Shown here piece by piece: positions 14,498 through 18,636 of a stretch of DNA of 64,000 nucleotides. The notes beneath the pieces are model-generated. The model was not told where the DNA came from, made no database searches, and saw nothing but the letters and a program-made list of their open reading frames with translations. The stretch is from NCBI GenBank assembly GCA_947623205.1, contig CANQGM010000007.1, positions 54,670 to 118,669 of the forward strand, given 5' to 3'. The first letter of the stretch is position 1. Every line of letters begins with the position of its first letter. Position numbers and translations under genes: made by a program. The DNA comes from an uncultured Clostridia bacterium (lineage in GTDB: Bacteria > Bacillota > Clostridia > Oscillospirales > Acutalibacteraceae).

Positions 14498-15253
14498 ATG
14501 CGATATCCAGAATTTCGAGATGCTGAATATTCTACAACAAATATACCGACACAAAGCTTTTTTATAACAAATATAAAAAGAATTAAAAAGTATATATTCT
14601 TAATTACTTGTTTTGCTTTAATTGTTTTGGTTTCATTTCATTTTTTTAGTTTAATCTTGTCGGAAACTAAAGAAAGCTATAAATTAAACCTAATTTCGAT
14701 TGGGTCTGCATTAGTTACCGTTTTTTCAGCATTAATCTCTGTATTTACTTTAATAAGTTCAAGTTCTATTAATAAATATGAAGATAATATAAGCTTATTG
14801 CAAACAAGGTATTTGGAAGGAAGAAAAATCTTTAAATGGGAATTTTTAAAAAGAAGTTCCAATTATCTGGCAAAGTCTGTTCAAAAGCATAACTATTATA
14901 TAAGTAGCGCTTGTTATAAGTTGTATAGTGGAGAAACAGATGAAAGCAGCTTGGTAATTGTTGTTCCTATATTAGAAGTAGATTTTTATGATATACCTTG
15001 CATCAGACAGATTTTTAGAATTAAAAAGTTTTTACCGGATTATTTATTATACATTAATGAGGAGCAAAAGAAATATGGTGAATCAGGCTATGATTCTGCG
15101 AAAAAGCCTCCCAATTATTATCTCCCTCTGCCAAATCATTTGATAGCTTTATATAAAAATATCATAATATATAAAGCCGCCAGATTATGCATAGAAATAT
15201 GTTTTTTATTCATTGTTAGCGCTACTTGTATGACTATAATTGGGATGTTTTAG
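14498..15253 (+). CDS. membrane protein, two N-terminal and one C-terminal predicted TM segments
   Basis: Hydrophobic KYIFLITCFALIVLVSFHFFSLIL, LISIGSALVTVFSALISVFTLI and ICFLFIVSATCMTIIGMF. Confidence 0.6.
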   Translation: MRYPEFRDAEYSTTNIPTQSFFITNIKRIKKYIFLITCFALIVLVSFHFFSLILSETKESYKLNLISIGSALVTVFSALISVFTLISSSSINKYEDNISLLQTRYLEGRKIFKWEFLKRSSNYLAKSVQKHNYYISSACYKLYSGETDESSLVIVVPILEVDFYDIPCIRQIFRIKKFLPDYLLYINEEQKKYGESGYDSAKKPPNYYLPLPNHLIALYKNIIIYKAARLCIEICFLFIVSATCMTIIGMF

Positions 15254-17537
15254 GCGGCTCCGATACTTTTAATGTATTATCTTCACAATAATGACAACTG
15301 GGTCCAAGTTTTACACTATGTTTCCTGCAAATAGATTGAACTGCACGAACTATTTCAAGTAATTCAGCATCCGAGGGAGGTAACAAATAATCTAACGGTG
15401 TTCCTGCAATCGGTTTAAAAAGAGATAATATAGGAGATACCCCTATCCTGCAAATCTCCTCTATACCTGAAAGCAAAGAATCCTTTGGTTCTAGTCCTAC
15501 AATGAATATGCTTCTGACATTTCCAGATTTACCCCAGATTTCCACAGCGTTTCTTAATGCTGTTAGATATGTTGCAATAGGTATTAATCCCTTTCCCGGC
15601 ATATATTTTTTTGCAATCTGACGATTAAAAATTTCTATATTAAAAGTAACTTCTGTTATGCCAGCCTCTTTTAATTGATGTAATATTTGTTTATCTGTAA
15701 TCGGCAGAGACATTAGATTAATAGGATATTTATTTTTTTTGCGAATATATTTTGCGATTTTGCAAACAAAATCATAGTCATTATTTAAGGGGTTGGATCC
15801 TCCGCCAATTAAATAATGCTTAATGCTTTTACAGTCATCATAAGCATCGATAGCCTCTGTTATATATTCAATAGATAATTCTCTATCATCCCTGTCGATG
15901 TCACAAAATCCACAGCCACAGCCCATACTCTTATAGTTGCATCCAAATCTATGATATATTCTTAATCTATCATTACCGAGGTATGTAAAATCGCTTAAAA
16001 TTAGCTTAGCATCAGCAGTTTTTCTATTTGAAATTAAATTGATGCCTCTTACTTTAACATCTGATATAATATTACTTCCATAATAAAGATAAAGCTTACC
16101 GTTATCTCGGAGTTTAATAATAAATGGACTAAGCTGAGATAGATTTGCTTGATAGGGAACACTAAAATAATACTTATTTCCTATTATCATATCAATTGCA
16201 TCAAATTCTTCGCAATTTACGCCTTCTGCATTATTCAAAAAGCACAGAGTGTTATTATCTATGATAACTCCGTGAGAAAGTAGCATAATCTTTAATTCTA
16301 AGATATCGCTCTGTGATTGATTCCCAATTAATGTATCCTCGATACATAGATTCGGATGAACAATCAAATTATAATCATGTGAAATTGCGCTAATGTTTTT
16401 TGAGAAAACCAACTTATATAGATATGTCCCTTCCTCCAGTGTATCTTGCCAAGAAAGGTTATCATCAATCAGTTTAATGTCCTTAAATGAATTAGCTTGC
16501 TCAAAAAGATGACGCAGCAAATTATCGTTTTTTTTCGAGTAAATAGCTTTATAGTAACTGTAGTTTACATCTAAATTGATGTTATAAGTGGGGTAGGTGT
16601 TATTAAATGCCTCCAGATGAAATCTCTGCATACTGTAATTCTCATTAACATTACTTATTGAGTCGTTTATTAAGAAAGTTGATGATTGAAACCTTGGATT
16701 TATTTCTGAAAAGTATACATTAGTCGGAGTGGTAATATAATCTATTCCGCAGATTCCCAGATACCCGCTTCTGCGTAATCTTTCACCGATTAATTTTGAG
16801 TAACGAAGGATTTTCTCTTTTATTGGAGTAGGCAAATACTTATAAGCAATGAAATCAGCACCTTTATATTCAAAATTGAATGAGTCTGGATTTAGTTCAA
16901 TTAATTGTATGGAAGCAGGAAACAATAACACTTCTTTTGCGTATACTACTAAATGAATATTGACAGAAATGTTATTCTTGATATATGGAGTCAATGAATA
17001 TATCCTATTAGCATCAATTTTGGAAACAACCAAATTCCAGCTTTGTTCTGTTAATAGCCACGTCTCAGAGCCGCCACACGAATACTCTCCTTGAAGGACG
17101 TAATTATTCTTCATTAATGAATTACGCATATCAAGTACACGCTGACCGTAACAAACCTCATTTTGAAGAACAGGGACTTCATTACCTAACCATTCACGGC
17201 ATTTAAACTTATTGTCCCATAAATCCAGTTTTCGAGCATCCATATATCCGATAAGATGTGATGTCAGCAATTCACTGTAATGTACAGCATCCATTGGGTA
17301 ATACAAAACAAATTGGGCATTTGGATATCTTTCAATAATATTTTCCGCCTTGCGGTTAACAAAGTCAAACCAGATATCTATATCTTCATTATAGTCAAAC
17401 CTAGTTTTATACTGCTTATCTAACGCAAAGTTTCCATTAAGATTAGAACCAAATATAGTAATTGAACCTAAAAAAATGTTAGATGTGTTTTTTATCTCTG
17501 ATTCTTGAATACCTATCCAAAAAAGTTGATTAATCAT
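15234..17537 (-). CDS. ATP-grasp-like domain fused to C-terminal radical SAM domain
   Basis: N-terminal YVLQGEYSCGGSETWLLTEQ and GYLGICGIDYITTPTNVYFSEINPRFQSST; C-terminal FGCNYKSMGCGCGFCDIDRDD..HYLIGGGSNPLNND..GITEVTFNIEIFN. Confidence 0.75.
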   Translation of the reverse strand: MINQLFWIGIQESEIKNTSNIFLGSITIFGSNLNGNFALDKQYKTRFDYNEDIDIWFDFVNRKAENIIERYPNAQFVLYYPMDAVHYSELLTSHLIGYMDARKLDLWDNKFKCREWLGNEVPVLQNEVCYGQRVLDMRNSLMKNNYVLQGEYSCGGSETWLLTEQSWNLVVSKIDANRIYSLTPYIKNNISVNIHLVVYAKEVLLFPASIQLIELNPDSFNFEYKGADFIAYKYLPTPIKEKILRYSKLIGERLRRSGYLGICGIDYITTPTNVYFSEINPRFQSSTFLINDSISNVNENYSMQRFHLEAFNNTYPTYNINLDVNYSYYKAIYSKKNDNLLRHLFEQANSFKDIKLIDDNLSWQDTLEEGTYLYKLVFSKNISAISHDYNLIVHPNLCIEDTLIGNQSQSDILELKIMLLSHGVIIDNNTLCFLNNAEGVNCEEFDAIDMIIGNKYYFSVPYQANLSQLSPFIIKLRDNGKLYLYYGSNIISDVKVRGINLISNRKTADAKLILSDFTYLGNDRLRIYHRFGCNYKSMGCGCGFCDIDRDDRELSIEYITEAIDAYDDCKSIKHYLIGGGSNPLNNDYDFVCKIAKYIRKKNKYPINLMSLPITDKQILHQLKEAGITEVTFNIEIFNRQIAKKYMPGKGLIPIATYLTALRNAVEIWGKSGNVRSIFIVGLEPKDSLLSGIEEICRIGVSPILSLFKPIAGTPLDYLLPPSDAELLEIVRAVQSICRKHSVKLGPSCHYCEDNTLKVSEPPKTSQL

Positions 17538-18636
17538 TTATTTCACCTTTATTTTCTATTCCAAAATCTAAAACAATTTGATTGAATAGTTTTTGATAGT
17601 TTTCTTCGAAATTACTGTCAGGTTGTTTGAGACCACCTTTTACTGCTGTCAAGCACTCACATGCAGACTGACTCATCAAATTTGATATAAGTAATTTTCG
17701 CTCTTTAACTTCATCTGTTCTAAGAAAATTTTGGAAGAACTTGTTCAATATAGGCTTACATATTCTGCAAGCTTGGGGCATTATGGTAGGACTATCTTTT
17801 GAATATGATTCATCTCGGTTACCGTACCAAGCAATAATGATTTCTTGTAACGCTTTGTCCGAAAGCTTATCCAATAATATCACAACCAGCCATAAGGAAA
17901 TTGGTGTATAAACCTTTTTGTCATACATATATCGTAAAAAGGTAAAATATTTAATATTCAAAGGGAACAAAACAGGAGAACATCCTTGACACACAACCCA
18001 TTCAATTGTATTTATTGCGTCATCAATCTGCTGCTTGGGGCTTAGAAAAGGTAAACCTAACATAATATTTATTTCAATATTATAGTTATATTTCTTAATT
18101 AGTTGTATCGTAGAAAGATATTCTTTGATACTAATTCCTTTCATAAATAAAGCATCTTGATACTTTGGATTTATGGTTTCTAATCCCATTTCTATTGTAA
18201 TAGGTTTCTCAACAATCCGGTTAATTAAATCTAACTTATCTTTTGTTACATCCTTGTAATGAGTCTCTATAATAATATTGGGAATAGAGCTTTTTTGCGC
18301 TTCTATTAGAATAGCTGTTAATATTTCAGTCGAGATTTGATAAGAATCCAAAATACTTCCATTCGTGCATAGTAGCAAATAATCAATATTTTCTGTATAC
18401 TCTGCTAAAATAGCTTTCATCTCTCTGATATATTCCTCAAGCGAGCCCATTTGATGCATGTAACCATAATCACACATTAAACAGGATCCGCTTAAATCAT
18501 TTTTGCATTGTTTGCTCAGAAAACCAATTTCTAATAAATCGCCTGATCTAAATATTGAGCATAACACTTTGGTTGATAAACAAGGACGTTTATTTCTAAT
18601 TTGTTTATTAATCCTTTTAAGTGTAATTGTATCCAT
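17530..18636 (-). CDS. radical SAM protein (Elp3/archaeosine-synthase RaSEA-like cysteine spacing)
   Basis: LSKQCKNDLSGSCLMCDYGYMHQMGSLEEYI; TNGSILD; IEMGLETINPKYQDALFMKGISIKEYLSTIQLIKK; 8-nt overlap with downstream gene. Confidence 0.75.
   Translation of the reverse strand: MDTITLKRINKQIRNKRPCLSTKVLCSIFRSGDLLEIGFLSKQCKNDLSGSCLMCDYGYMHQMGSLEEYIREMKAILAEYTENIDYLLLCTNGSILDSYQISTEILTAILIEAQKSSIPNIIIETHYKDVTKDKLDLINRIVEKPITIEMGLETINPKYQDALFMKGISIKEYLSTIQLIKKYNYNIEINIMLGLPFLSPKQQIDDAINTIEWVVCQGCSPVLFPLNIKYFTFLRYMYDKKVYTPISLWLVVILLDKLSDKALQEIIIAWYGNRDESYSKDSPTIMPQACRICKPILNKFFQNFLRTDEVKERKLLISNLMSQSACECLTAVKGGLKQPDSNFEENYQKLFNQIVLDFGIENKGEIND

Follow-up and report, generated by a model that had tools for sequence, protein, structure and literature searches.

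The stretch of DNA analysed here (referred to as the window) comprises 64,000 nucleotides (nt) from an uncultured Clostridia bacterium of the family Acutalibacteraceae and harbors, at positions 12890-18694, a segment of 5.8 kb in which two convergent operons are located between perfect inverted repeats of 25 nt. One half of the segment encodes a RaSEA-like radical S-adenosylmethionine (SAM) protein of 368 amino acids (aa; 17530-18636, minus strand) and a 767-aa fusion of an ATP-grasp and a variant radical SAM domain (15234-17537, minus strand). The other half encodes a 481-aa pentapeptide-repeat protein (13039-14484, plus strand) and a 260-aa membrane protein (14471-15253, plus strand), and exactly these four genes are enclosed by the repeats. 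The reading frames of the fusion and the RaSEA-like gene share 8 nt, and the convergent coding ends, namely those of the membrane protein gene and the fusion gene, overlap by 20 nt. Both minus-strand reading frames and their 8-nt overlap, described in an earlier sequence-only reading of the window as a two-gene biosynthetic pair, were confirmed at these positions. Just outside the segment, a site-specific recombinase gene encoding a XerC-like tyrosine recombinase was found (11722-12699, minus strand; Phage_integrase PF00589, 2.3e-41), and a promoter-like extended -10 element, TGGTATAAT (12869-12877, plus strand), which represents a consensus match only, points inward to the pentapeptide operon. 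Based on this arrangement and the results described below, the segment is probably an invertible, phase-variable cassette whose enzyme operon and partner effector would be expressed in a mutually exclusive manner.

Each arm of the repeats (left, 12890-12914, plus strand; right, 18670-18694, minus strand; 100% complementary) contains a GATAA-N7-TTATC core, which reads GATAACTTGGAATTATC at 12892-12908 in the left arm and occupies 18676-18692 in the right arm. The right core is only 39 nt away from the start codon of the RaSEA-like gene, which makes a promoter of its own unlikely for that operon. When the region was simulated 300 times with a first-order Markov model, the longest perfect inverted arm pair spaced by more than 1 kb measured 20 nt at most (mean 13.5 nt), compared with 25 nt in the window. 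Repeats also flank the homologous cassettes identified in other genomes (loci numbered with the prefix L), showing lengths and identities of 69 nt and 97% in L013, 112 nt and 96% in L049, 112 nt and 100% in L050, 21 nt and 100% in L051, and 24 nt and 96% in L031. The contig of L048 terminates inside its own repeats, and its flanking contigs were not identified with this repeat as query. Every complete repeat holds the core (G/C)ATAA-N7-TTATC with a 7-nt spacer that is the same on both arms and different between loci. Such a core and spacer layout is what the crossover site of a tyrosine recombinase should look like. In L050, each operon has its start codon within the identical repeats, which points to exchange that is still going on. 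Of the 39 loci with a recombinase or a cassette, 21 contained matched inverted core pairs; the 15 control loci (257 kb), which were picked by the analyst and unmatched in composition, contained none. On both sides of L013, L050 and L051, the cores lie only 25-63 nt from the start codons, a distance that is hardly or not at all sufficient for internal promoters.

Profile and structure searches, as proposed in the sequence-only reading, supported the ATP-grasp and radical SAM folds; the repeats, the recombinase and the wider cassette class had escaped that reading. Residues 109-286 of the fusion matched ATP-grasp_3 (PF02655; 30.1 bits, cutoff 23.2) and residues 531-680 matched Radical_SAM (PF04055; 45.1 bits, above threshold); its radical SAM half falls within the NF045502 variant_rSAM family (161.6 bits, cutoff 125). 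AlphaFold modeled the fusion with high confidence (pLDDT 91, pTM 0.89), and Foldseek searches with this model returned PurK, biotin carboxylase domains and ATP-grasp peptide ligases. Alignment with relatives identified C533-x8-C542-x2-C545 as the conserved cluster cysteines, and these three residues together with the profile score above cutoff place the protein among the radical SAM enzymes. The C-x6-C-x-C-x2-C spacing reported previously is literally present, but its second cysteine, C540, is not conserved and the true set is C-x8-C-x2-C; the C-terminal CxxC (C748, C751) noted at the same time proved to be conserved. Among the acidic residues expected to coordinate Mg-ATP, the positions E278 and N280 are invariant in the ATP-grasp half, which scores above its profile cutoff. 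The usual position of the second ATP-binding lysine is occupied by Q149, a glutamine present in the fusions as well as in the separate relatives seen, so that the ATP-grasp activity is only putative. Membership of the fusion in the MSMEG_0568 family (TIGR04043) was rejected, its score being 90.1 against a cutoff of 303.7. The RaSEA-like partner matched Radical_SAM (33.8 bits, cutoff 29.5) and retains C-x7-C-x2-C in four of four aligned relatives. Its previous description as RaSEA/Elp3-like holds insofar as the RaSEA family (TIGR01210) is its best profile; membership in this family was rejected, since the score of 100.2 bits is below the curated cutoff of 212.15.

Further observations were made on relatives of these enzymes. 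The fusion gene of L013 (genome G253, 12626-14905) contains one in-frame TAG after residue 658, reflecting either a sequencing error or decay. In L014 of genome G193 (6832-10980), the RaSEA-like protein, a variant radical SAM protein (CX3CX2C) and an ATP-grasp protein are encoded by three separate adjacent genes, which adjoin an LPG_synthase_C-like gene and are devoid of inverted-core sites; further along this genome, visual inspection of open reading frames (ORFs) suggested an M20-type amidohydrolase and an ATP-binding cassette (ABC) exporter. Copies of the NF045502 variant radical SAM protein, often paired, occur in L034, L035 and L036 among ORFs resembling nitrogenase-like reductase genes, together with ABC transporter genes and arylsulfotransferase-like genes. 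No relatives emerged from viral contigs, for which the fusion sequence and the fusion, RaSEA-like and pentapeptide alignments served as queries, and matches in plasmid and phage collections were confined to the lone variant radical SAM family. A single presumed phage match (L020) was discarded, as its bacterial neighbors give it a cellular appearance.

The pentapeptide-repeat protein (PF13599/PF00805) features a conserved C-terminal alpha/beta region, and its model (pLDDT 77) shows a solenoid in the N-terminal half. For the membrane protein, about three transmembrane segments were predicted from hydropathy; profile searches gave no Pfam match, it resembles SLATT proteins in layout only, and homologues are encoded in L013 and L048. 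Assignment to HalA of the Hailong system was rejected (35.9 against a curated cutoff of 250). Moreover, PADLOC assigned no known anti-phage system to the proteins of the window and returned only weak matches, the best at 3.4e-4.

The convergent fusion/pentapeptide pair is kept in seven further genomes. In L013, from another genome of the window's own family, the whole block is repeated, including the recombinase, pentapeptide, membrane protein, fusion and RaSEA-like genes, and the fusions of another family (L031 and L048-L052) always face a homologous pentapeptide protein. All eight pentapeptide homologues lie opposite a fusion, this partner being present in eight of eight loci for which that side is sequenced. 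Genes for the RaSEA-like protein, the membrane protein and a nitroreductase-like protein are variably present among the cassettes; the RaSEA-like gene stands beside the fusion in the window, L012, L013 and L049, and no copy was detected next to the fusion in L031, L050 and L051. With the RaSEA-like gene accessory and the convergent pentapeptide protein constant, the two enzyme genes do not form a unit by themselves, contrary to the earlier proposal, and are one half of the repeat-bounded segment; a small-molecule pathway is still plausible.

Recombinases related to that of the window (34-51% identical) adjoin the same cassette in L013, L049, L050 and L052. At E < 1e-90, relatives were detected in 32 of 250 genomes of one family and in 16 of 250 genomes of the window's own family, i.e., in 48 of the 500 sampled genomes, often marking the same two-module architecture. 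Between the repeats of such recombinase-marked loci, nearly always two convergent modules were present. The enzyme side comprises D-Ala-D-Ala-ligase-like ATP-grasp proteins, SHMT-like pyridoxal phosphate (PLP) enzymes with zinc alcohol dehydrogenase, NodU-like carbamoyltransferases with an IspD-like protein, aspartate/ornithine carbamoyltransferase-like proteins, glycosyltransferases (GT) and SPASM radical SAM proteins. Encoded on the opposite side are STAND-like NTPases, some of which are fused to a restriction-nuclease-like (REase) domain, and TIR, SIR2, pentapeptide or TPR proteins; these side labels were assigned by the analyst, several of the proteins gave no informative profile match, and TIR proteins were seen on the enzyme side as well as on the opposite one. 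All-against-all BLAST comparison showed that the pairing is family-specific: pentapeptide proteins are paired with fusions in 8/8 cases, TPR proteins with ATP-grasp proteins in 4/4, REase-STAND proteins with carbamoyltransferases in 3/3, and three more pairings were each seen in 2/2. In L064 (6558-9969), the two genes of a Thoeris-like pair occupy different halves of a segment that is flanked by inverted repeats and adjoined by the same recombinase family; a ThsA-like SIR2-STALD protein (1.1e-60) faces a TIR protein showing a partial ThsB match. A second cassette with recombinase and inverted cores is present in the window's own genome (L135, G000:C13:8000-27500; cassette at 7409-12839), carrying a 300-aa aspartate/ornithine carbamoyltransferase-like protein versus an 866-aa STAND/TPR-like protein. 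As a side observation, a Bro-N gene and a serine recombinase gene with disrupted reading frame adjoin the tyrosine recombinase gene of the window (9316-11676), and the same neighbors accompany different cargo in L151, which suggests cargo exchange within a mobile element.

One indication of flipping comes from L012 (2073-5736), in which a sister cassette with a GT gene versus a gene for a TIR-like protein is assembled across a gap of 21 N. In this scaffold, one left flank joins both the GT end and the TIR end, and the GT end also joins the right flank; the copies at the flank-GT and flank-TIR junctions are inverted and nearly identical (380/381 and 411/413 nt). A mixed population would be the simplest explanation for both junction types, a misassembled duplication being possible as well. 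Furthermore, about ten loci show a strong inward promoter-like site beyond just one of the two ends, and the pentapeptide cassette occurs both ways relative to it: the site faces the pentapeptide side in the window, L049 and L050 and the fusion side in L031 and L012, where a promoter-like stretch upstream of the RaSEA-like/fusion operon was recognized by inspection. Of 52 recombinase genes, 13 are located within 350 nt of a contig end, compared with 1.4 expected; such an excess would result from mixed orientations. A further argument for inversion, namely opposite orientation with respect to the recombinase, was weakened, since L121 differs from L124 and L127 relative to the recombinase and not relative to the promoter-like site. 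The case for inversion therefore rests on the repeats, the cores, the promoter side and the L012 junctions.

According to the mechanism proposed from these sequence features, the XerC-like recombinase would recombine the two GATAA-N7-TTATC sites and thereby flip the segment, and a single promoter outside one end would drive whichever operon faces it. In the state represented by the window, the pentapeptide/membrane-protein operon would be served by this promoter, and in the flipped state the RaSEA-like/ATP-grasp-radical SAM operon would be driven. Because the convergent coding ends overlap, transcription of either operon would run antisense into the other. More speculatively, the enzymes might produce an amino-acid-derived small molecule acting on the partner effector, so that the two states would correspond to producer and responder. 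As a tentative generalization, gut Clostridia might widely carry interchangeable, recombinase-flipped cassettes of this kind, each cell being held in one of two exclusive states: synthesis of a small molecule, through ATP-grasp, radical SAM, PLP, carbamoyl- or glycosyltransferase enzymes, or production of the immune-type protein responding to it. Clonal populations would then be composed of senders and responders.

Several points weigh against an inversion switch. In the window strain, only one orientation was seen, and inversion there is presumed from sequence. The promoter-like sites are consensus matches in AT-rich DNA and, as a general scan showed, no more frequent across the region than in shuffled sequence, and the comparison of promoter sides was made without a formal control. 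Some of the contig breaks could stem from long repeats instead of mixed orientations. Wherever a recombinase adjoins a pentapeptide cassette (five loci), it is encoded on the same strand as the fusion, so that orientation relative to the recombinase does not provide a clean test. The term effector and similar labels rest on weak or no profile matches for several families. Finally, both Thoeris proteins act in one cell, which is a poor fit with strict exclusivity.

The most probable alternative, which we nevertheless regard as rather unlikely, is a joint function: both halves may form one co-expressed defense-type system, consisting of an enzyme-made signal and a pentapeptide/membrane effector, with inversion being rare or merely tuning their ratio. 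The partner-specific co-inheritance of the two sides would fit such a system, as would the cassette combining TIR and SIR2-STALD proteins, given that known Thoeris consists of a synthase and an effector, and the pentapeptide fold of the membrane effector HalA, to which a weak match was obtained here. However, operons starting so close to the cores in L013, L050 and L051 have little room for promoters of their own, and the promoter-like sites are mostly one-sided. With clearly lower probability, the recombinase would mobilize the cassette as a whole, the inverted repeats being its ends or the sites of exchange rather than parts of an on-site inversion switch. Similar recombinase, Bro-N and serine-recombinase genes beside different cargo in the window, L151 and L135 and the patchy distribution of the cassettes would agree with mobility, but the recombinase gene lies outside the repeats, inverted sites favor inversion over excision, the arms are homogenized within a locus while spacers differ between loci, and L012 shows both junction types. 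A stand-alone two-gene pathway for a modified peptide or nucleoside is improbable: the ATP-grasp and radical SAM domains and the separate RaSEA-like, variant radical SAM and ATP-grasp genes of G193 with their LPG_synthase_C-, amidohydrolase- and exporter-like neighbors would suit it, but several cassettes lack the RaSEA-like gene, the pentapeptide partner is constant, and the cassette has no gap for a precursor gene of ordinary size (very small ORFs and distant precursors were outside this search). Archaeosine-like modification of tRNA or a nucleoside by the RaSEA-like protein, suggested by its best profile, is the least credible option, considering a score of 100 against a cutoff of 212 and an ATP-grasp ligase gene in the place where an ArcS-like gene would adjoin.

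For the preferred interpretation as an inversion switch, literature on inversion and defense, Thoeris, Lachnospiraceae and radical SAM/ATP-grasp enzymes was screened, and the cassette class was not described therein, preprints and most subscription journals being outside the coverage. If the interpretation is correct, this family of recombinases and sites flags a modular switch by which uncharacterized metabolite enzymes and uncharacterized effectors are paired in many gut bacteria. Since each cassette would then name an enzyme together with its likely functional partner, substrates and immune-type sensors would become discoverable in pairs. Moreover, phase variation would choose between two unrelated programs instead of switching one gene on and off or selecting among its variants.

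Regarding individual components, MSMEG_0568-type proteins adjoin nitrilase genes, whereas the NF045502 half in the window is fused to an ATP-grasp domain, and the partner has RaSEA of archaeosine synthesis as best profile, but below cutoff and with no ArcS alongside. The likeness to Thoeris (ThsA/ThsB) concerns the sister cassette L064, the window itself not being Thoeris; to our knowledge, canonical Thoeris is not split over an invertible segment. The Mu G segment, the P1 C segment and invertible hsdS loci are DNA inversion switches with convergent alternatives. Like these, the cassette would combine an invertible segment with two convergent gene sets, a recombinase alongside and an outside promoter. 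However, their gene sets are variants of one gene, whereas those of the window are unrelated (enzymes versus effector-like proteins), and Mu and P1 use serine invertases in contrast to the tyrosine recombinase found here. The P1 C segment is cited in a publication in which a serine recombinase was tied to phage defense (PMC12529663). Phase-variable inversions of Clostridioides difficile, affecting CwpV (PMC2784873) and, with RecV, the flagellar switch (PMC8890394), share with the cassette a site-specific recombinase, inverted sites and clonal heterogeneity, the latter being proposed for the window, but the DNA flipped in those cases is a regulatory element preceding an operon, whereas kilobases of coding sequence would be flipped in the window. 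Inversion switches as such are known; the proposed alternation between unrelated enzyme and effector operons is unmatched among the systems compared.

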